From a candidate division TA06 bacterium SM23_40 (GTDB taxonomy: Bacteria > LJUI01 > SM1-40), in the NCBI GenBank assembly GCA_001303705.1, contig LJUI01000070.1, positions 1 through 12,953 of the forward strand: DNA of 12,953 bases, read 5' to 3'. A program made the translations under genes and the position numbers. This document shows positions 3,501 through 12,953 of this stretch, one piece after another (within the stretch, counting starts at the first letter, position 1; each line of letters begins with the position of its first letter). Under the pieces are notes generated by a model. The model was not told the origin of the DNA. It made no database searches and saw only the letters and a list, made by a program, of their open reading frames with translations.

Positions 3501-3869
3501 CTACTCCGCCGAGGGATCTTCCTCCATCAGCCCGAAGACATTTCCCTCGGTGTCGGTGCAGTAGGCCATCCACCCCACTCCGGGCACCGAACGCTTCCCC
3601 ATGATAACCTCCCCGCCCATCTCCTTGATCTTTGCCGTGTATTCGTCGACAGAGGGGACATCGACCGTATTGTACGTGCCGGCATGCGGGTCCATCCGCC
3701 TCATGATCCCGCCGTCGATCCCCGGCTGGCCCTGCTCCCCCGTCGTCACCAGCCAGTAGTCTGCCGGACCCTCCCACTTCTTGATCTGCCAGCCGAACAC
3801 CTTCTCATAGAACGCGGCAGCTCTGGCGGGATCGTCCGCGTTGATCTCAAAGTGAACCACTCTCGGCAT
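3501..3869 (-). CDS. VOC superfamily (glyoxalase/bleomycin-resistance fold) protein
   Basis: A 122-residue single-domain protein of the vicinal oxygen chelate fold. The strand start VVHFEI (4-9) with H6, the DDPARAAAFYEKVFGW segment (12-27), the central PGIDGGIM (49-56), and the closing CTDTEGNVFGLMEED (104-118) with E116 are typical. H6 and E116 would be metal ligands. The length suits a protein that works as a dimer. Members bind small substrates or act as dioxygenases, isomerases or resistance proteins; the substrate cannot be read here. The start is the ATG at 3869 because AAAGGAGG lies 5 nt upstream. A longer in-frame reading to 3950 adds a low-complexity, unsupported extension. A promoter lies upstream at 4024-4052. 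It seems unrelated to the redox cluster apart from strand. Confidence 0.9.
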   Translation of the reverse strand: MPRVVHFEINADDPARAAAFYEKVFGWQIKKWEGPADYWLVTTGEQGQPGIDGGIMRRMDPHAGTYNTVDVPSVDEYTAKIKEMGGEVIMGKRSVPGVGWMAYCTDTEGNVFGLMEEDPSAE

Positions 3870-3874
3870 ATCGA

Positions 3875-3882
3875 CCTCCTTT
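3875..3882 (-). promoter_or_regulatory. Strong ribosome binding site that sets the VOC start
   Basis: AAAGGAGG on the minus strand, 5 nt before the ATG at 3869 (AAAGGAGGTCGAT-ATG). It is close to the perfect anti-16S complement and fixes the start 27 codons inside the longest open frame. Confidence 0.8.
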
Positions 3883-4023
3883 GCGCCGGAACAAGCTACG
3901 CCCACCGCCGCCACGCACCACCGCCGGAGGGCAGCTCCACCCCGTCTCACTGCTGTGACGCGTCCCCCAATCGCCTATCCCGCCGGACGACATGCAGGAC
4001 CCGATTCGATGCCGCGGGACCCT

Positions 4024-4091: not shown

Positions 4092-4340
4092 TCACTCCCT
4101 GTGTCGCCCGCCAGATCTGGCACCGGCCAGGCCCGCCAGCACCGCGACGAAGATGGCGACCTTCAGTGCGGTGAACCAGGATATCGACTCCGCGACGAGG
4201 CCCTGCTCGACCGCTCCGGGGAAGAGATCCGGGATCGTCCAAGCCCAGAGCACCTTCACCAGGAACAGGGCGACAATGAAAACGATGACGATGAGCGCGA
4301 GGATGCCGGGCACGACTGCCAGCCAACATGAACTCCTCAT
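4092..4340 (-). CDS. Small membrane protein with two predicted helices, family not recognised
   Basis: An 82-residue protein. Residues 7-33 form a long hydrophobic helix and 55-74 a second one. Between them is a compact loop WTIPDLFPGAVEQGL (34-48), which looks conserved and functional: aromatic, prolines, one acidic pair. The tail RSGGRHRE is basic and probably cytoplasmic. The ATG at 4340 is chosen because GGAGGAGG (4349-4356) lies 8 nt upstream; an in-frame start at 4397 would add 19 polar residues without support. It starts 146 nt after the flavoprotein stop. It is tempting as a membrane anchor for that complex. However, it has two helices rather than the usual three and no histidine within a helix for haem, so this is not supported. 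Function unknown. Confidence 0.75.
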   Translation of the reverse strand: MRSSCWLAVVPGILALIVIVFIVALFLVKVLWAWTIPDLFPGAVEQGLVAESISWFTALKVAIFVAVLAGLAGARSGGRHRE

Positions 4341-4380
4341 GAGCGAGACCTCCTCCCCATGGCGTTCCCTCCGCAGACGG

Positions 4381-4434
4381 TCGCAGGGCTGCGCCACACC
4401 CCTCGATGACGCGGCGATGGCGCTGGCCCTGCGA
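4381..4434. other. Long two-part stem-loop between the flavoprotein and the small membrane protein
   Basis: TCGCAGGGC (4381-4389) pairs perfectly with GCCCTGCGA (4426-4434). After a 1x2 internal loop GCGCCA (4391-4396) pairs with TGGCGC (4418-4423). That gives 15 base pairs with a 21-nt apical part. No T-tract follows on either strand, so it is not a standard intrinsic terminator. It could be a 3'-end stabiliser of the redox operon, a processing site, or a leader element of the small membrane gene. Confidence 0.5.
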
Positions 4435-4486: not shown

Positions 4487-6115
4487 TCAGGATCCGATCG
4501 TGATGAGATGGCTCTTGAGCTCGTCCGGCCGGTAGTCCGGGAGCAGCATCGGCGCGCGACGGGTGGTCTCGACCCCGTTCTTCTCGAGCTCCTCGTGGTA
4601 GCGGCGCACGTGGTCGAGCCCGAGTTCCCCTGGAACCGTCTCCTTTGCCCTGAGCGCTGCTGCTGCTCCTGCACGCCGCCCGAAGACGACGATGTCGAGC
4701 AGGGAGTTGCCCATCAGCCGGTTCCGCCCGTGGACCCCGCCCGCCACCTCGCCCGCCACGTACAGCCCCTCGATCTGAGAGGCGCCCTGATCGTCGATCA
4801 CAATTCCGCCATTCTGGTAGTGCTGGGTCGGGTAGACCAGGATCGGATCCGCGGTCATGTCGATTTCGAACCGTTCATACTGTCGGTACATCGCCGGGAG
4901 CAGCCGCTGAATGGTCCCGCTCCCGTGAATCTCCTCGATGAGAGGGGAGTCGAGCCACACACCTCGCATGCCGCTCGGCGTGACGACCCCGAGGTTTCGC
5001 TCCGTGCACTCCCTGATGATCGCAGCGGATTCGGCATCCCTCGTCTCGAGTTCATACACGAACCGATTCCCCTCGCCATTCACAAGCTGCGCCCCAAGAC
5101 CCCGCACCTTCTCGGTGACGAGCTGTCCCACGATCTGCTCCGGGTAGGCCGCCCCGGTGGGATGATACTGGATGGTGTCCATGAAGGCAAGCTCACACCC
5201 TGCCCGATATGCGAGCACCAGGCCATCGGCAGTCGCGCCATAGTGATTGGTGGTGGGGAATCCCTGCACGTGAAGCCGCCCCGCTCCCCCCGTCGCAATG
5301 ACCGTCGCCTTGGCCCGGACGATCGAATACTCCTGCGTCTCCATGTTGTAGAGGATCGCGCCGGTGCATCGCCCCTTGCCGTCGGTGAGCAGTTCTACGA
5401 CCGGTGAGAACTCGATCACCTCGATATCCTGGTTGAGCACCTCGTCCCGGATCACCTTCATGATGTCGCCGCCGGAGTAATCGCGCGCAGAATGCATGCG
5501 CTTGCGCGACGTTCCCCCTCCGTGGATCGTCACCATCGTCCCGTCCGGCTCCTTGTCGAACATGACGCCCATCTCCTCGAGCCAACCGATGACCTTGGGC
5601 GCGTCTATCACCAGCGCGCGAACGAGGGCGGGATCGTTGTGGAACCCGCCTCCACCGATGACATCGAGGTAGTGGATCGACGGCGAATCGTGACTCTTGT
5701 CGGCAGCCTGTATCCCACCCTGGGCCATCATCGTGTTGGCATCGCCGAACCGGAGCTTGGTCGCCAGCAGCACACTCGCCCCGCTCTCCCGGGCAAGGAG
5801 CGCGGCCGCGCCGCCAGCGCCGCCGCCGCCGACAACGAGCACATCGACATCGTGATCGATCCGTGAGAGGTCGAAGTCCTCGGGATCTACCAGACTTCTT
5901 GCCTCGATGAGATCGGCGATCTCATGGGGAGCACGATCGCCCCTGCTCGGCCCCACGCGAAGCTCCCGCTGCTGCTCTCCCTTGTAGTCGGGGTGATGGT
6001 CCCTGAGTAGCTGAGCCTTCTCGTCAGGACTCATGAGACCCAGTTCCTGCGTCTTCCTGAATGCGCGTGTGCCTTCAAGTATCTTGATCGATTGCCGCAT
6101 GGCTTCGGTGTACAC
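4487..6115 (-). CDS. FAD flavoprotein of the fumarate reductase / succinate dehydrogenase / L-aspartate oxidase superfamily
   Basis: Probable catalytic subunit of a soluble fumarate-reductase-like enzyme. The FAD fold begins at 90 with VDVLVVGGGGAGG (90-102). Active-site elements are all present: YHPTG (317-321), TEKVRG with an arginine (334-339), QHYQNGG (431-437) and VHGRNRLMGNSLL (461-473). The position that carries covalent FAD as histidine in FrdA/SdhA (SHT..A.GG) is asparagine here (ANTMMAQGG, N127). This matches L-aspartate oxidase and suggests non-covalent FAD. Residues 1-85 are an extension absent from classical FrdA, and the C-terminal helical domain is short (542 versus about 590-600). 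The start is GTG 6115, with GGGGGA upstream and 12 nt after the preceding gene. Its FrdB-like neighbour and lack of nadA or nadC favour a reductase over NAD biosynthesis. The substrate may be fumarate or another 2-enoate; not provable here. Confidence 0.85.
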   Translation of the reverse strand: MYTEAMRQSIKILEGTRAFRKTQELGLMSPDEKAQLLRDHHPDYKGEQQRELRVGPSRGDRAPHEIADLIEARSLVDPEDFDLSRIDHDVDVLVVGGGGAGGAAALLARESGASVLLATKLRFGDANTMMAQGGIQAADKSHDSPSIHYLDVIGGGGFHNDPALVRALVIDAPKVIGWLEEMGVMFDKEPDGTMVTIHGGGTSRKRMHSARDYSGGDIMKVIRDEVLNQDIEVIEFSPVVELLTDGKGRCTGAILYNMETQEYSIVRAKATVIATGGAGRLHVQGFPTTNHYGATADGLVLAYRAGCELAFMDTIQYHPTGAAYPEQIVGQLVTEKVRGLGAQLVNGEGNRFVYELETRDAESAAIIRECTERNLGVVTPSGMRGVWLDSPLIEEIHGSGTIQRLLPAMYRQYERFEIDMTADPILVYPTQHYQNGGIVIDDQGASQIEGLYVAGEVAGGVHGRNRLMGNSLLDIVVFGRRAGAAAALRAKETVPGELGLDHVRRYHEELEKNGVETTRRAPMLLPDYRPDELKSHLITIGS

Positions 6116-6127
6116 CGCTCATTCCCC

Positions 6128-6808
6128 CTATTTGGGCTCGATGTCTCGCTCGTTGTATCGCTTGCGGAGATCCTTCTCGCCCGCCCCCATGAGTGCGGCT
6201 ATCTCCTCGTCGAACTTCCCGCTCTCAACCTCCGCCACGCGATCGGCCAGATGCTGCGCGCGGGGAGCGATGTCGCGCGCGTACAGCCGCCGGCACAGGA
6301 CTCCGACGTAGTATTGGACGATCTCCGCGGGACAGCGCGACGCACAGAGCCCACACATAAGACAGTCGAACGAAATGTCGGCAGCTTTGGCGATATCGCC
6401 ACGCAAGGCAGCCTGGACATAGTCCATCACCTGAATATCCTGCGGACATATCTTGGTACACGTGTTGCAGCTGACGCACCTGGCCACCTCGGGATACTGT
6501 TTCAAGACCGCAGCGATGTTTGCGTCGAGCTCCTCAATGTCGTACTCGGCCTTGTTTGCCGGATAGAACGGTATCTGAGTAAGGTGCATCCCGTCCTCTA
6601 CTACAGTCTGACAGGCGAGCCCCACCTTCAGCTTGTAGTCGTCCTTCGTGCGGTACACCGTTCCACATGCACCGCAGAACCCGCCCCGGCACCCACAGCC
6701 CCTGACCAGCCGATAACCCGCGTGCTCCATCGCCTTCATGATGGTGAGGCTCGTGGGCACCTCATACCGCTTGCCCATGATGTAGATGGTCACGTTCTCG
6801 TCTTCCAT
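6128..6808 (-). CDS. Iron-sulfur subunit with [2Fe-2S] and two [4Fe-4S] motifs (FrdB/TfrB/HdrC-like)
   Basis: A 226-residue electron-transfer subunit, expected to pass electrons to or from the flavoprotein encoded 12 nt downstream. Residues 1-80 are a plant-type ferredoxin domain with C40-x4-C45-x2-C48-x17-C66 for [2Fe-2S]. Residues 105-165 hold two regular ferredoxin motifs, CVSCNTCTKICP (C111, C114, C117, C121) and CLMCGLCASRCP (C149, C152, C155, C159). Classical FrdB/SdhB has one [4Fe-4S] and one [3Fe-4S] motif, so the second half looks more like HdrC. Unlike thiol:fumarate reductase TfrB there is no C-terminal CCG (HdrB-type) domain. The length is normal for FrdB. The ATG at 6808 is preceded by GGAGGAAGAGG. 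It lies 135 nt after the previous gene, the longest gap but one in the cluster. Confidence 0.85.
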   Translation of the reverse strand: MEDENVTIYIMGKRYEVPTSLTIMKAMEHAGYRLVRGCGCRGGFCGACGTVYRTKDDYKLKVGLACQTVVEDGMHLTQIPFYPANKAEYDIEELDANIAAVLKQYPEVARCVSCNTCTKICPQDIQVMDYVQAALRGDIAKAADISFDCLMCGLCASRCPAEIVQYYVGVLCRRLYARDIAPRAQHLADRVAEVESGKFDEEIAALMGAGEKDLRKRYNERDIEPK

Positions 6809-6943
6809 CGTTGCCTCTTCCTCCGTGTCTACACCCGAAATGGCGCCCCCGCAATCGAACGGGAGTCTCGGCCTGCATCACTCTCTGTCGAACACATCGG
6901 ATACTATATCGAGCCACGTCCTGGCCAGCGCCGGGGCCAATCC

Positions 6944-8062
6944 CTAGCGGGGCTCCAGCTCATCCTCCCTGAACGTAGCGAGCGGGAGGGGCTCATCGAG
7001 GTCTCTCCCTGCCACGTATTCAAATGCCTCCTGCACCCGATGGCCCACTGTCTTGAACAGCGCGAGGAGGGGAATGTCATTGGGACACGCATCTTCACAG
7101 GCGCCGCAGGCGACGCATGAACTCGCCATGTGATTGAGTCGCCCGAGGTGAAACAGCACAGTGTCAGGAAGCATACGGTATGCCCCCTTTCGCGCAGCCC
7201 GTCTCAGATATTTCCAGCCCTCCAGATCGAACGTGTCCGAATCGAAGAAACAATGCATGCAGTAGCAGATGGGACAGACGGTCATGCAGTTGTGACAGTT
7301 GATGCACGGCGCCAGCATCGCGAGGAGACCCTCGAGTCCAGTAGCCTCTCCCTCAATCGAGGCGAACATCTCATCGCGTGCCTTCTCTCTGGCCGCCATG
7401 ATCTCGCCCAGGGCCTCGCGGCGGCGCTCGTCGCTCCCCTCTTCGGGCGCCGCCAGTCCGTCGATGAGTGCCTCACCCTTCTCAGTGGTGGCGATGAGTA
7501 ACAGCTCCTTGTTCAGGTCCGCGCCAAATAGCCCGATGACCAGATCGCCTGTCTCAGGAGCGGGACGCTCGCATACCCGGCATGCCGACCGGAGACTCTC
7601 ATGGAGGAGATCCGAACTGACCCTGTTCAAGAATTCCTCGGTGGAGCCTCCGCCATCCCTCTTCGCTGCTGCATATGCCCGGAGGTGCTGGGCCCCATAG
7701 CAGTCGAATCCGATGATAATGAGATTCTCGAGATCTGCCTGCTTCAGCTTCGTGAGCTCCACCAGCGCCCTGATCTCACACGGCCTCATCACAACGGCTA
7801 CCGGCCTATCCATGGGCGCGATCCGGGTGAGTCGGGAGACGGCCCTCGCAGCATTGATAGGCATGACCGGGGCGAGGACATCGATCCCCGAGAGCTCCTC
7901 GGGCTCGGTGATGAGTGTCTGCACCACGTTATCTGCAGAGGGGACCGCCCTCGGAGCCATGACCGCCCCGACCGAGGGACCTTCGAGGAGTCCGGCGAGA
8001 AATCCCCGTATCGCACCTGCGACATCGCCGTCATCTATCTGAAGCCTCGCTAGTTTAGCCAT
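6944..8062 (-). CDS. FrhB/FdhB-like flavin and iron-sulfur oxidoreductase subunit
   Basis: A 372-residue protein resembling the beta subunit of coenzyme F420 hydrogenase/formate dehydrogenase. Evidence is the central VMRPCEIRAL (91-100) and IIIGFDCYGAQ (115-125) segments. The C-terminal half has a cysteine-rich motif CINCHNCMTVCPICYC (253-268, plus C271) and a second ferredoxin motif CVACGACEDACP (316-327). CRVCERP at 161-167 adds two more cysteines. In anaerobes such proteins sit beside hdrA and mvhD and serve as the electron entry or exit point, using F420, NAD(P)H, ferredoxin or formate-derived electrons; which one applies here is unknown. The ATG at 8062 is chosen for GAGGGAG 5 nt upstream and an 11-nt gap from mvhD. 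An in-frame GTG at 8089 would overlap mvhD and lacks a site. It should be translationally coupled to mvhD. Confidence 0.82.
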   Translation of the reverse strand: MAKLARLQIDDGDVAGAIRGFLAGLLEGPSVGAVMAPRAVPSADNVVQTLITEPEELSGIDVLAPVMPINAARAVSRLTRIAPMDRPVAVVMRPCEIRALVELTKLKQADLENLIIIGFDCYGAQHLRAYAAAKRDGGGSTEEFLNRVSSDLLHESLRSACRVCERPAPETGDLVIGLFGADLNKELLLIATTEKGEALIDGLAAPEEGSDERRREALGEIMAAREKARDEMFASIEGEATGLEGLLAMLAPCINCHNCMTVCPICYCMHCFFDSDTFDLEGWKYLRRAARKGAYRMLPDTVLFHLGRLNHMASSCVACGACEDACPNDIPLLALFKTVGHRVQEAFEYVAGRDLDEPLPLATFREDELEPR

Positions 8063-8073
8063 CGTCACTCCCT

Positions 8074-8502
8074 CTACAGAGACCAGCACTTGGCCATCGG
8101 GCTCGGGCCAAGAGCCTCTACGCTGCGGACCATCTCATCGACTGTCTCGGCGAATTTCTTGCCCTCACTTGCGCTGATCCATTTCATCCATACCCGGTCC
8201 TCCTCAAGGCCCAGCGTGCGGAGGATCGTGCGGAGCGCAGTCACCCGTCTCCTCGCCTTGTAGTTCCCGGAGACATAGTGACAATCTCCGGGGTGACATC
8301 CCGCCACTAGAACGCCATCTGCCCCCTCGAGCAGCGCCTTCAGGATGTATGCCGGATCGACAGATCCGCTGCACATGACCCGGATGCCCCGGATATTCGG
8401 GGGATATTGTATCCTCGTCGTTCCGGCGAGATCGGCGGCGTTCGATGCACACCAGTTGCACAAGAACCCAACGATCTTCGGCTCAAACCCGTTCTCGCTC
8501 AT
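8074..8502 (-). CDS. mvhD: MvhD/HdrD-type [2Fe-2S] electron-transfer subunit
   Basis: A 142-residue protein of the methyl-viologen-reducing hydrogenase delta subunit family, which links an electron input module to HdrA. Hallmarks are GFLCNWCASNAADLAG (12-27), VMCSGSVDPAYILKAL (42-57) and GADGVLVAGCHPGDCHYVSGNY (starting near 60). The five cysteines supply the [2Fe-2S] ligands. Some homologues, such as those in class II benzoyl-CoA reductase clusters, use selenocysteine in this family; here all positions are ordinary cysteine. The ATG at 8502 has GGAGG 7 nt upstream; two TTG codons before it are not needed. It lies 61 nt after the double HdrA gene and 11 nt before the FrhB-like gene. The full protein is the usual single-domain size, not fused to HdrA. 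Confidence 0.93.
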   Translation of the reverse strand: MSENGFEPKIVGFLCNWCASNAADLAGTTRIQYPPNIRGIRVMCSGSVDPAYILKALLEGADGVLVAGCHPGDCHYVSGNYKARRRVTALRTILRTLGLEEDRVWMKWISASEGKKFAETVDEMVRSVEALGPSPMAKCWSL

Positions 8503-8563
8503 CAACAATCCTCCGCCTCATACGTGCAATGCTAGAGCACTTCCTCATGACCCGGCTCACACC

Positions 8564-11500
8564 CTACAGTGCAGCATCGAGCATCGCAAAGAGCTGACGC
8601 TCGCGATAGCCTCGCAGCTTCGCCGCGCCGTTGGGACAGATCGTCGCGCAGACTCCGCACCCCTGGCAGATCGACTCTGAGACGATAGCAATCTTCTCGT
8701 CAGTGTCGATGGTGCGGGCGCCGAAAGGACAGCCCTCCACACAGAGCTCACAGCCCGAGCACCAGCGCCGATGCACCTCGGACACAAGCCGGGGAGGAGC
8801 CTCCTTCAATCTCCGGATGATGGCGGCGGCGCGGGAAGCAGCTGCCCTCCCGGAGCACAATGTCTCTTCGAGAGAGCCGGGCGAATGGGCGAGCCCGCAG
8901 GAGAGAATACCCTCGGTCACCATCTCCAGCGGACGGAACTTCACGTTCGCCTCGGCGATAAACCCATCCTCTGTAGTCTCTAACGGCGCGGCAGGCGGCG
9001 GCTCCGGATCGATACCGGTGCTCAGTACCAGCAGGTCGGGGTGCAGTACGATGCGGCCTCCGAGCAGACGATCCATGACCTTGACCTCGAGGCTGCCGTC
9101 CTCCAGCTCGACAGATGGCTTGTCTTCGACGTCATAACGCAGAAAGACGATGCCCTGCTCCCTCGCCTCACCGTAGTACTGCTCCTTCAGACCGTAGAGC
9201 ATCATATCCCGGTACAAGATGTAGACGTCCGCTTCAGGGTCCCGCCGCCGGATCTCCATCGCATGCCTGACGGCATGGGAACAGCAGATCCTGCTACAGT
9301 AGGGCCGCGCTCCTTCACGTGACTCGACACACTGTATCATCACCACGGCTTTGGCATCGAGCGGATCCTCGCTCTCAGCGAAGCGCCTGGCAAGGGTCCG
9401 CTGTCCGATAACGCGATCGGTTGTGCCGAAGAGGTATTCGGTCGGTTCATGTTCGACCGCTCCGGTCGCTATGATGACAGCTCCGTACTCGGTTTCTGCT
9501 GGCGGGAGGTTCTCCGTCCCTCCCTCGGGCCGACGGAGCTCCGCCCTGAACCGGCCCAGTTGGCCGGAGACATCAGTCACTTCGGTGCCGAGCGAGATGT
9601 TGACACGAGACGAAGCCTGGACCGCCTCAATCGTCTGGGCTACTGCCGCGCGTGGGTCGGCGTCGCCGAGCACGGCGAAGATCTCACGTGCGTTCCCTCC
9701 CAGCTCGTTCGACCGCTCGATCAGATCTACCCCGATCCCCTGGTCGGCGAGGGCGAGCGATGCTGCCATTCCGGCCATACCTCCGCCCACGACCAGCACG
9801 CGGTCGCTCACCTGACCCGGCTTCGGCGGCATGATCTCCTCGAGCCGCAGTCTCTCGTATCCCATGGCGAGCAAGTCCTTCGCCTTCTCTGTCGCCGCCT
9901 CGAGATCGGCGTGCACCCATCCATCACCTTCACGGTAGTTGACCCATTCCACCAGACCGGTATCGACTCCCGCCTTCCTCGCCCGTTCTCCGACGAGCAA
10001 CTGGTACGGGTTGGGGGTGCATGCCCCGACGATCAGCCGTTCCGCCCCGCTCTCGGCGATCGCCTTCTCAAGTTCCTCGAGCCCTGACGCAAGACAGAGA
10101 TAGGGAACCTCGGTGACACTCGATACCCCGAGCAGCCCTTCGAGGAGTTCTCGCAGCGCGCCGAAGTCGAGGGAGCTGTCGAGTTGGCCGCCGCACCGGC
10201 AGAGAAACGCGGCGATTCCCCCTCTCTCCCGCGGCTCCTCCTCCCGCGTAGACGGCTCTTCGGTCCCGGTAAGTGCCTCTGTCTCCTCCGCGGGCGCCGG
10301 GACCGCCTCCGGTTCCACCTGCGCGCGCCCGAGGATCGCCGCGGCACCGGCGGCCGCCGCGCTCGCCTGGACTACGGCCTGGGGGATGTCGGACGGAGCG
10401 GTGAACGAGCCGCAGACAAAGATCCCCTCACGGTTAGTCGTCGTGCTCGAGAATCCTACAGGAGCACTGAATCCGAACTCGTTGAGCCCGACCCCGAGTG
10501 CCTGCCCTAAATCCCTGGTAGACTGGGGCTGCACCTGCCCGGCGGAGAGGACGACAAGATCGAATGCCTCGTGCTGGAGCTCCCCCTCCTCGGTCTCGTA
10601 GGTGATGACCAGATCCCCTGACTCACGCTCCTCCGAGACGGCGGGCACCCGACATCTGGTGAAGCGAATGCGTCCCTCGCTCATCGCGCGCTCGTAGTAC
10701 CGGTGGTAGCCCTTTCCGTACGCCCTCATGTCCATGAAGAAGATGTGGGGGACGATCTGGGGATCGATCTCTGTGAGGAGCATCGCCTCCTTCAGGGCAT
10801 ACATGCAGCACGCAGATGAGCAGTACGGCCGTTCGTTGTCGCGTGAGCCGACGCACTGGAGGAACGCTACGCGACGCGCAGGTGCACCGTCCGAGGGCCG
10901 AACGAGCGGGGCCTCAGCCGGCTCCCGGGCATCGCTCCTCAGCTCGCGCCCTGTGGGGCTTATCAGTCGCTCGAGATCGAGACTCGTCACTACATTGGCC
11001 AGACGTCGGTACGCGTAGTGGGTGAGCGGACCGGGGTCGAATTCCTGGAATCCCGGATCGAGAATGACTGAGCCAACCGCGAGTTCGAGGAGCTCCTCGG
11101 CGGCCTCCAGATCGATCGCCTCAGTGGGGCAGACCTTGACACACTCGCCGCACATCGTGCACGTCTCGGGATCGATGACATACCGGTTCGCCGTGGCATT
11201 GGGGTGGCTGAGATGGATGGCCTTGTGGCGCGTCAAACCTTTGTCGAATGGATCGTCTGTCTCCACCGGGCAGACGTCTACGCACAGGGCACAGCCGATG
11301 CACGTGGCCTGGTCGACATACCTGGGCGCCCGCGCCACCCTGGCGACGAATGCCCCGGCCTCGCCTTCAAGGCCTACGAGCCCGGATGAGGTGAGGACGA
11401 CGACGCCCGGATGAACGAGCTCCCGCCGCAGGCAGAACTCCCCCGCGCCGTCCCGCGCCACGCTCGGCAGGAGCCGGCAGAACCCGCAGTCATTCGTGGG

Positions 11501-11695
11501 GAACCATTTGTCGAGCTGGACCAGCGCCCCACCAAGGTACGGTCTCTTCTCGACGAGATAGACCTTGTACCCTATCTCCGCGAGGTCGAGCGCAGCCCGG
11601 ATGCCGCCGACGCCGCCTCCTACCACCAGGGCTGCTCCCTTCCGCTCTCCCCCGGAGGCCGCTGTCTCTCGCTCCGATGTTGCCGCTCGCGCCAC
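8564..11695 (-). CDS. hdrA: Double HdrA fusion: two FAD modules with six or more iron-sulfur sites
   Basis: A 1043-residue fusion of two HdrA-type modules, the likely bifurcating core or a relay. Module 1 (20-457): FAD motif VVGGGVGG (24-31), TNDCGFC (67-73), an inserted ferredoxin domain (C132/135/138/142 and C179/182/185/189), and the signature CVGSRDNERPYCSSACC (281-297). Residues 457-492 are an acidic, proline-rich linker. Module 2 (493-1043): an HdrA N-terminal Fe-S domain (C499, C501, C534, C559), FAD motif VVGGGMAG (635-642), signature CVESREGARPYCSRICC (789-805), and a terminal two-cluster ferredoxin (C979/982/985/989, C1010/1013/1016/1020). Module 2 lacks the inserted ferredoxin; module 1 lacks the N-terminal Fe-S domain. 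The GTG start at 11695 has AGGAGG 5 nt upstream. The size resembles BamE of class II benzoyl-CoA reductase clusters, but no bamB, bamC or bamG-I is present. Confidence 0.93.
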   Translation of the reverse strand: MARAATSERETAASGGERKGAALVVGGGVGGIRAALDLAEIGYKVYLVEKRPYLGGALVQLDKWFPTNDCGFCRLLPSVARDGAGEFCLRRELVHPGVVVLTSSGLVGLEGEAGAFVARVARAPRYVDQATCIGCALCVDVCPVETDDPFDKGLTRHKAIHLSHPNATANRYVIDPETCTMCGECVKVCPTEAIDLEAAEELLELAVGSVILDPGFQEFDPGPLTHYAYRRLANVVTSLDLERLISPTGRELRSDAREPAEAPLVRPSDGAPARRVAFLQCVGSRDNERPYCSSACCMYALKEAMLLTEIDPQIVPHIFFMDMRAYGKGYHRYYERAMSEGRIRFTRCRVPAVSEERESGDLVITYETEEGELQHEAFDLVVLSAGQVQPQSTRDLGQALGVGLNEFGFSAPVGFSSTTTNREGIFVCGSFTAPSDIPQAVVQASAAAAGAAAILGRAQVEPEAVPAPAEETEALTGTEEPSTREEEPRERGGIAAFLCRCGGQLDSSLDFGALRELLEGLLGVSSVTEVPYLCLASGLEELEKAIAESGAERLIVGACTPNPYQLLVGERARKAGVDTGLVEWVNYREGDGWVHADLEAATEKAKDLLAMGYERLRLEEIMPPKPGQVSDRVLVVGGGMAGMAASLALADQGIGVDLIERSNELGGNAREIFAVLGDADPRAAVAQTIEAVQASSRVNISLGTEVTDVSGQLGRFRAELRRPEGGTENLPPAETEYGAVIIATGAVEHEPTEYLFGTTDRVIGQRTLARRFAESEDPLDAKAVVMIQCVESREGARPYCSRICCSHAVRHAMEIRRRDPEADVYILYRDMMLYGLKEQYYGEAREQGIVFLRYDVEDKPSVELEDGSLEVKVMDRLLGGRIVLHPDLLVLSTGIDPEPPPAAPLETTEDGFIAEANVKFRPLEMVTEGILSCGLAHSPGSLEETLCSGRAAASRAAAIIRRLKEAPPRLVSEVHRRWCSGCELCVEGCPFGARTIDTDEKIAIVSESICQGCGVCATICPNGAAKLRGYRERQLFAMLDAAL

Positions 11696-11700
11696 AGTCT

Positions 11701-11706
11701 CCTCCT
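11701..11706 (-). promoter_or_regulatory. Ribosome binding site selecting a GTG start
   Basis: AGGAGG on the minus strand within GAGGAGGAGACT, 5 nt before GTG at 11695. It makes GTG the clear start of the double HdrA gene, although the upstream gene ended 145 nt earlier. Confidence 0.75.
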
Positions 11707-11840
11707 CGGCATCTCACCCCTATCGCTCTATCGGCTCACGCCCCGGATGCGGTGCTGGACGCCGTGCCAGTCTGTGCGAACTCGATCGACGCAGGGCCGC
11801 GCCGCATGTGGGCGACCCTGACATCCTCGGGCCGGAATCC

Positions 11841-12953
11841 TCAATAGTCTTCGGTCGCCACCTCGATCATCTCCATGTACTGCCGGCTGCTGAAATTCGT
11901 GTGACTGATGGCTCCTGAAGGGCAGGCTACGCTGCACCCGCCACATCCCTCGCAGAGCATCTCGTTCACCTTCGCCACCTTCTCGACGAGGTCGACCTCG
12001 ACAGCACCATATGCACACGCCGCCTCGCAGTACCCGCACGCGCGACAGACCTCTGGATCGACAGAGGCGACGGTCGGCTCGTGGTCGAGCTCATCGCCGG
12101 AGAGCAGATCAACCACCTTCATGGCCGCCCCCGATGCCTGGGAGACAGTATCGGTGATATCCTTCGGGGACTGAGCTGCCCCGGCGATGAAGATACCCGC
12201 AGTGAGGGTCTCGACAGGCCGCAGCTTCAGGTGAGCCTCCTTCAGGAACCCATATTCATCGGTACCGATGCGGAGAAGCTTCGCCAGCTCCTTGACGCCC
12301 TTGTTGGGCACCATCGCGGTGGCGAGGACCGCCATGTCTGCCGCCACTTCCACGTTCCTGCCGGTGAGCGTGTCGACACCCCACACCATGATCTTGCCGT
12401 CCTCCTGGAAGATCTTCGACACCTTCCCGCGCAGGAAGAGAATCCCCTCCTCCTCCATCCCCCGCTGGACGAACTCCTCGTATCCCTTTCCGTTGGAGCG
12501 GATATCGATATAGAAGACGTATGCCTGGCCGTCGTGCACGCGGTGTTTGTACAGCATCGCCTCCTTGGCTGTGTACATGCAGCAGACACGAGAGCAGTAG
12601 GCCACTCCAGACTCAGGATCACGCGACCCGACGCAGTTAACGAAGACGACCTCTTTGGGGATCCTCCCGTCGGATGGCCGTCTCACCTCGCCTCCCGTGG
12701 GGCCGGATGCCGCCAGAATGCGTTCGAACTCAAGGGCCGTGACGATGTCGGGAGATGTGCCGTACCCGTAGGCTGCGAGTCCTTCCCACTCGTACAGATC
12801 ATACCCCGTGGCTACGACGATCGCGCCCACATCGAGGTCGACGAACGCATCTTCCATCCCATGCCGGATTGCATCGGGCTCGCACGCCGCAACACAGGCC
12901 TTGCACTCAGAGCACCCGGCGCAGTTGAGACACCGCTTCGCCTCAGATACCGC
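11841..12953 (-). CDS. hdrA: HdrA-type flavin/iron-sulfur protein, 5' end beyond the window
   Basis: The last 371 residues of an HdrA subunit, which in methanogens and many anaerobes carries the electron-bifurcating FAD. The frame is open to the right edge, so the start is outside; an internal ATG at 12857 is not the true start because the inserted ferredoxin motif (CLNCAGCSECKACVAAC, visible residues 8-24) lies upstream of it. Then come the FAD/NAD-like region, the HdrA signature CVGSRDPESGVAYCSRVCC (visible 107-125) and a C-terminal two-cluster ferredoxin (C303/306/309/313 and C334/337/340/344). Full-length HdrA has about 650 residues, so some 280 are missing, including the N-terminal Fe-S domain and the first half of the FAD fold. 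It ends in TGA, followed by 34 further in-frame codons with protein-like composition. It leads the visible part of the cluster. Confidence 0.95.
   Translation of the reverse strand, partial: AVSEAKRCLNCAGCSECKACVAACEPDAIRHGMEDAFVDLDVGAIVVATGYDLYEWEGLAAYGYGTSPDIVTALEFERILAASGPTGGEVRRPSDGRIPKEVVFVNCVGSRDPESGVAYCSRVCCMYTAKEAMLYKHRVHDGQAYVFYIDIRSNGKGYEEFVQRGMEEEGILFLRGKVSKIFQEDGKIMVWGVDTLTGRNVEVAADMAVLATAMVPNKGVKELAKLLRIGTDEYGFLKEAHLKLRPVETLTAGIFIAGAAQSPKDITDTVSQASGAAMKVVDLLSGDELDHEPTVASVDPEVCRACGYCEAACAYGAVEVDLVEKVAKVNEMLCEGCGGCSVACPSGAISHTNFSSRQYMEMIEVATEDY

Follow-up and report, generated by a model that had tools for sequence, protein, structure and literature searches.

The fumarate/succinate couple is among the most positive of the organic couples in anaerobes. 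That a bifurcating fumarate reductase may exist has been hypothesised before. Fumarase, Flx-Hdr, and fumarate reductase are encoded together in the "succinate operon" of Pseudoclostridium thermosuccinogenes (PMC7282089), and the paper describing it cites a 2019 preprint in which such an enzyme was proposed. In tubeworm symbionts and Thioflavicoccus the FlxABCD-HdrABC genes occur with korABCD and tfrAB, and Flx-Hdr, KorABCD, and TfrAB have been suggested to form a complex (PMC6315080). Genes for a thiol:fumarate reductase (TFR), a 2-oxoglutarate:ferredoxin oxidoreductase (OGOR), fumarase, Mvh, and Hdr lie together in Candidatus Celaenobacter (PMC8542988), and the HdrL protein of Desulfobacterium autotrophicum is described as an HdrA/glutamate synthase (GltD) fusion (PMC2702500). 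Among the HdrABC complexes tabulated in a 2018 review on bifurcating enzymes, in the part of the table covered, there is no fumarate reductase, and no experimental demonstration of a ferredoxin-coupled (bifurcating) fumarate reductase was found in the literature searched. Described here is an operon from candidate division TA06 bacterium SM23_40 that probably encodes an HdrABC-based, ferredoxin-coupled soluble fumarate reductase with NAD(P)H as the donor. The window, namely the whole stretch of DNA analyzed, is an entire contig (C12) of 12,953 bp, the right edge of which cuts hdrA. New to the hypothesis are the donor set of this operon, the breadth of the family to which it belongs, and the swapping of modules within that family.

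Open reading frame (ORF) calls and profile searches place six genes, all running in one direction, on the minus strand of the window from 4487 to 12953. From the right edge leftward they are separated by ~145, 55, 11, 135, and 12 nt, as calculated from the coordinates. Both the co-directional arrangement and three short gaps of 11-61 nt had been pointed out in an earlier note on this DNA, and both are borne out. The first gene encodes the C-terminal 370 residues of HdrA (11841-12953). It is followed by a gene for a 1043-residue HdrA-type protein (8564-11695), mvhD/flpD for a [2Fe-2S] electron-entry subunit of 144 residues (8074-8508; Pfam FlpD, E 1.8e-55), a gene for an FdhB-like subunit with an FrhB_FdhB_C domain and two [4Fe-4S] motifs (6944-8089, with the likely start at the ATG at 8062), an frdB-like gene of 226 codons (6128-6808), and a gene for an FrdA-like flavoprotein of 542 residues (4487-6115). 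The earlier note had also counted two HdrA proteins; the partial hdrA and the second HdrA gene are real, but what it called "HdrA2" consists of two HdrA-like halves fused head to tail. The HdrA profile matches this fusion in three stretches, and its first half lacks the HdrA N-terminal domain. The same fusion gene is found in L043, L048, L051, L055, L056, L059, and L072 (loci of relatives are designated by L numbers).

The source draft genome comprises 2.88 Mb in 189 contigs and is ~90% complete. By searching it with the intact HdrA and HdrB of relative L055, a second contig, C47, was located, the minus strand of which carries genes for fumarase alpha, fumarase beta, HdrC (135 residues), HdrB (296 residues), and an HdrA that ends at the contig end after 304 residues (L128:1-914). 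Residues 2-289 of the L055 HdrA are covered by C47 and residues 296-646 by the window. There is no direct suffix-prefix overlap between the window and C47. The start of C176 shares 104 identical bp with the end of C47 and likewise with that of a third contig, C67; 1,446 bases into C176 begins another 104-bp stretch, this one identical to the window end (12850-12953, minus strand). These overlaps are the signature of a collapsed repeat that is entered from C47 and from C67 and left toward the window and toward the remainder of C176, the 104-bp stretch in the window being an exit edge. The product of the repeat is an NfnB/GltD-like NAD(P)H-binding domain, inserted in HdrA, that matches NfnB (4ylf_B) with an E of 5e-105, and bridging of C47, the repeat, and the window gives hdrA as one open frame of 1,122 residues. 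The same 104-bp overlap ends both C67 and C47, and C67 could in principle join the window and C47 join C176, in which case hdrCB would not lie directly upstream. Such a pairing is very improbable. With single HdrA proteins the window half of HdrA shares 62% identity (median 58%) and the C47 half 73% (median 62%); with fused ones the values are 35-37% and at most 55%, respectively. C176 runs on into a fused double HdrA, and the HdrA start on C67 lacks the HdrA N-terminal domain. The gene order in L055 and L051 disagrees with it as well. The C47-window pairing is best because both of these HdrA halves belong to the single-HdrA class and C176 to the fused class. The best-supported order of the operon would be fumAB-hdrC-hdrB-hdrA(NfnB insert)-hdrAA-mvhD-fdhB-frdB-frdA. 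Of that operon, the 3' two thirds lie in the window, and the missing HdrB is an artefact of the contig edge rather than a property of the cluster.

The ~1.5-kb NfnB/GltD-like domain is collapsed to one assembly copy (C47, L128:1-104; C67, L145; C176, L133:15632-17077; window, 12850-12953) that is used by two different hdrA genes, which suggests a recent duplication or gene conversion inside these genes. The second Hdr locus, on the C67 contig end (L136) and C176 (L133), begins with a 2-oxoacid:ferredoxin oxidoreductase gamma gene, continues with an HdrA having an in-frame TGA, likely selenocysteine, and leads into the GltD-containing double HdrA. More HdrA frames with TGA are present on C176 and on contig C86.

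Compared by description, the operon and that of P. thermosuccinogenes have in common fumarase, an HdrABC-type core, and fumarate reductase in one operon. There, however, NADH enters via FlxABCD, whereas in the operon described here HdrA carries the NfnB insert, and a double HdrA, MvhD, and FdhB are present. The clusters of the tubeworm symbionts, Thioflavicoccus, and Celaenobacter (the last being L086 among the relatives compared) bring together the same kinds of genes, for fumarate reductase, Hdr, and 2-oxoglutarate:ferredoxin oxidoreductase, but the donor module differs, being Flx or an [NiFe]-hydrogenase. Methanogen TfrAB likewise combines a soluble FrdA-type flavoprotein with FrdB and HdrB-like CCG modules; in the operon under study HdrB has a gene of its own, HdrC and HdrA are present, and the scores lie below the TfrA and TfrB cut-offs. 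With the methanogen MvhAGD-HdrABC and FdhAB-HdrABC complexes it shares HdrA, a ten-cysteine HdrB, HdrC, MvhD, and an FdhB-like subunit related to solved chains, while adding FrdBA, fumarase, the extra HdrA fusion, and the NfnB insert, and lacking FdhA or a hydrogenase. As in HdrL, a GltD-like domain is fused into HdrA and mvhD is adjacent, whereas an FrdB/FrdA pair beside HdrL is not reported in the part of PMC2702500 that concerns us here. The Qmo-Apr system also has HdrA-like proteins working with an FrdA-superfamily enzyme, but the present operon contains no membrane QmoC-like subunit, and its FrdA possesses dicarboxylate residues and scores highest with TfrA/NadB models.

The source organism is far from sequenced relatives, the nearest comparison genomes sharing only the domain with it. 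At least 80 relatives of FrdB, with ~53-76% identity, were found in bacteria and archaea; the labels of their genomes include Eisenbacteria, WOR-3, Cloacimonadota, Aminicenantes, Atribacteria, Spirochaetes, Bacillota, Thermoplasmata, Heimdallarchaeota, and Bathyarchaeota. When 83 loci were surveyed with regard to strand, HdrB being counted if on the same strand within 11 kb, FrdA was present in 82, HdrB in 66, HdrC in 64, HdrA in 58, and MvhD in 55. A Kor subunit is encoded in 24 of these loci, and 16 have fumarase. The co-location of HdrB greatly exceeds the ~0.03 expected by chance for the source genome. In L055 and L051 the genes follow the window order, with hdrC-hdrB directly upstream of hdrA. 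The linkage of FrdA/FrdB to an HdrA-type core, claimed in the earlier note with conserved synteny as its check, is thereby confirmed in distant relatives. Its further proposals, that the cluster lacks HdrB and that FrdBA stands in for HdrBC, are not supported. The window itself shows no HdrB, and the HdrC fold in the second half of FrdB, described below, makes direct docking on HdrA conceivable; hdrCB is, however, present on C47, tied by the exact overlaps to the same repeat and, by the best-supported pairing, directly upstream of the partial hdrA, an arrangement that the earlier note had itself named as one that would refute its model. Ten loci seemed HdrB-less despite long flanks, but in L059, L072, and L090 an HdrB lies just past the fetched flank on the same strand. 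No HdrB was found nearby in the genomes of L043, which contains a homologous cluster, and L062, and none was seen in the fetched stretches of L046 and L063. We give a complex without HdrB very little credence: FrdAB is joined onto HdrABC and is no substitute for HdrBC.

The L043 locus (5144-12315) belongs to a Methanomassiliicoccales archaeon MAG (metagenome-assembled genome) and is the nearest FrdBA relative. It reads hdrAA-mvhD-fdhB-frdB-frdA, and upstream there is only a small HdrA C-terminal piece.

FrdA matches the TfrA, NadB, and Sdh/Frd profiles, best TfrA and NadB, with every score under the cut-off. The residues His 318, Thr 334, Glu 335, Arg 338, Arg 359, His 432, and Arg 466 align with the catalytic set of flavocytochrome c3 fumarate reductase, and none of them varies among 49 relatives, so that the FrdA-type acceptor supposed in the earlier note indeed has a complete fumarate reductase active site. 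An AlphaFold2 model (pLDDT 89) best matches the soluble fumarate reductases of the flavocytochrome c3 type, with Z ~40 and an rmsd of 2.2-2.4 for 387-390 aligned residues. The cut-offs for 8-methylmenaquinol:fumarate reductase/type E enzymes are missed (SdhA, 197.8 versus 1100; SdhE, 153.8 versus 500). As for the quinone-linked Sdh/Frd enzymes of types A-D, the operon has no membrane-anchor gene, and the second cluster motif of FrdB is a full CxxCxxCxxxCP rather than that of a [3Fe-4S] cluster. Searches of the genome revealed no Frd/Sdh flavoprotein besides FrdA; one more full-length PF00890 protein is encoded, and this is NadB (L-aspartate oxidase). The N-terminal extension of ~85 residues is strongly conserved (invariant Tyr 2, Arg 17, Arg 20, His 41-Pro 42-Asp 43, Gly 55, and Glu 71) and lies mostly outside the structural matches. 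Residues 1-85 contain no recognised domain and are possibly a docking element.

The histidine that links FAD in membrane Sdh/Frd is Asn 127 in FrdA, as in flavocytochrome c3. This residue bears on the direction of catalysis. The same complex could run in reverse as a confurcating succinate dehydrogenase, succinate being oxidized with the help of reduced ferredoxin to yield NAD(P)H, as for propionate oxidation. Methylmalonyl-CoA mutase is encoded twice in the genome, and fumarase and Kor are reversible neighbours from the tricarboxylic acid (TCA) cycle. Covalent FAD supports succinate oxidation, whereas the non-covalent FAD indicated by Asn 127 suits fumarate reduction better, and the reverse direction is considered quite improbable.

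FrdB, which has no CCG domain, contains Cys 40, Cys 45, Cys 48, and Cys 66 in its [2Fe-2S] domain and two [4Fe-4S] motifs at Cys 111-Cys 121 and Cys 149-Cys 159, all of these cysteines being invariant. In its model (pLDDT 89), residues 3-81 match the [2Fe-2S] domains of complex I and hydrogenases (Z ~8), and residues 94-182 best match HdrC of the solved HdrABC complexes (Z 11.9, rmsd 2.3, 88 aligned), a score that is moderate for a helical domain and serves as a hint only. No SdhB/FrdB chains are among the structural matches listed, with which kinship is still compatible. On the basis of the model, FrdB may dock on HdrA or HdrB as HdrC does.

The bridged HdrA matches the HdrA chain 5odc_A with an E of 8e-200 and has both the FAD domain and the terminal ferredoxin domain; the window part alone matches the HdrA2 model with an E of 5e-115. 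HdrB on C47 displays two complete CCG motifs comprising ten cysteines (Cys 9, 41, 42, 78, 81, 153, 192, 193, 228, and 231), each of which is at least 95% conserved across 63 sequences. HdrC carries two [4Fe-4S] motifs, though its scores are under the equivalog cut-offs. The closest solved chains to the FdhB-like product are the FdhB subunits of formate dehydrogenase-HdrABC complexes, and this product stands in place of the FlxABC NADH module, no FlxA or FlxB being found in the window or C47. Formate as the donor through FdhB was rejected since no molybdopterin oxidoreductase was found in the ~90% complete genome, and F420 since no CofH match was found there. A hydrogenase within the operon was likewise rejected, the hydrogenases of the genome residing on other contigs. 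NAD(P)H is the favored donor because no part of the operon other than the NfnB-like insert of HdrA is recognisable as a hydride site.

Complex formation, the electron path, bifurcation, donor identity, and direction are inferred from the genes, residues, synteny, and contig linkage presented above. Fumarase would supply fumarate. The NfnB/GltD-like domain in HdrA would accept a hydride from NAD(P)H, and/or electrons would enter via FdhB-MvhD, and the FAD of HdrA would split the electron pair. One electron would travel to ferredoxin via the ferredoxin-like clusters of HdrA. The other would pass along HdrC/HdrB and then FrdB, which resembles HdrC, to FrdA, where the non-covalent FAD would reduce fumarate to succinate. 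The net reaction would be 2 NAD(P)H + fumarate + Fd(ox) -> succinate + Fd(red), with ~-33 to -49 kJ/mol as calculated from standard potentials of +33 mV for fumarate (PMC5861303), -320 mV for NAD(P)H, and -420 to -500 mV for ferredoxin. The ferredoxin user would be the 2-oxoglutarate:ferredoxin oxidoreductase of the reductive TCA branch, which is encoded in the cluster of many relatives.

Several observations weigh against this scheme. The pairing of C47 with the window, though the best-supported one, was arrived at across the repeat and not read through it, and L043, closest to the window in FrdBA, has no HdrB nearby. The lack of a molybdopterin oxidoreductase and of CofH in the genome as assembled leaves the role of FdhB unexplained. 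HdrB keeps an apparently complete disulfide-reducing site, and a small thiol/disulfide could be its real substrate. Finally, HdrC-HdrB-FrdB-FrdA occurs without HdrA in the operon in the Desulfovirgula/Desulfofundulus-type loci L044, L047, L052, L053, L054, and L058 (in L073, HdrB-FrdB-FrdA), so that HdrCB-FrdBA can exist without a local bifurcating subunit. These HdrA-less loci possibly encode a split thiol:fumarate reductase, or else an output half that borrows HdrA from elsewhere.

For the operon described here, a split thiol:fumarate reductase is the main rival. HdrB would oxidize cellular thiols or reduce a disulfide, FrdA would reduce fumarate, and HdrA-MvhD-FdhB would regenerate the thiol pair, the connection being a thiol/disulfide link rather than direct wiring. 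The ten CCG cysteines kept in HdrB and the HdrA-less operons agree with it, as does the methanogen TfrB, which is an FrdB-HdrB fusion, and the literature names homologues thiol:fumarate reductase. The TfrA and TfrB equivalog cut-offs are nonetheless missed by far (327 versus 718 and 31.9 versus 385, respectively), and these bacteria are not known to have a CoM/CoB thiol. HdrA, moreover, is in the cluster in 58 of the 83 loci, and in L059, L060, and L072 its stop overlaps the frdB start. The thiol-linked scheme is accordingly regarded as unlikely. Coupling of fumarate to ferredoxin stays the best reading because of the HdrA linkage, the conserved synteny, the complete FrdA active site, and the fumarase in the operon.

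Among the relatives, the modules flanking HdrCB-FrdBA vary. [NiFe]-hydrogenase subunits lie beside it in L049, L065, L079, L086, L089, L101, L104, and L107, and FlxABC in L031, L075, L084, L087, L091, and others. The window-type set of HdrA-HdrA, MvhD, and FdhB is present in L043, L048, L051, L055, L056, L059, L064, L066, L072, L090, and L130. When these donor labels were placed on a tree of FrdB plus FrdA, 25 changes were counted as compared to the least possible 5 and a shuffled mean of 42.6; the count is approximate, the tree being a quick one and some labels having been assigned manually at loci where the automatic operon call was interrupted by a contig end or antisense ORF. Electron-input modules swap while HdrCB-FrdBA persists, as expected if FrdA is the terminal acceptor. 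It is possible, though we hold this only tentatively, that the operon represents a family of soluble fumarate reductases, modular in build and ferredoxin-coupled (bifurcating), in many bacterial and archaeal phyla. A constant HdrCB-FrdBA output half would be combined with exchangeable donor modules for H2, for NADH (Flx), and for NAD(P)H (an NfnB domain within HdrA), or with FdhB, the HdrA of the window operon having two potentially bifurcating flavin domains, of the HdrA and NfnB types, in one chain.

Fusions of HdrA with MvhD (794 residues) and of HdrC with HdrB (439 residues, HdrD-like) are observed in L086:4154-6538, L104:4835-7219, and L035:2-1321. Directly downstream of frdA in the window is a minus-strand ORF of 101 residues (4092-4397) with no Pfam match. 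Two further neighbours, a ComEC/Rec2-type competence protein (47-2482) and a glyoxalase-family protein (3501-3950), are unrelated, and promoter and terminator scans gave nothing of use.

The proposals made so far concern single organisms. The breadth of the conserved synteny, together with the cultured hosts of the HdrCB-FrdBA core (Desulfovirgula and Desulfofundulus), makes the key activities directly testable. If true, membrane-free coupling of fumarate to ferredoxin would alter the energy yields of fermenters, of autotrophs using the reductive TCA cycle, and, in reverse, of syntrophic propionate oxidisers.

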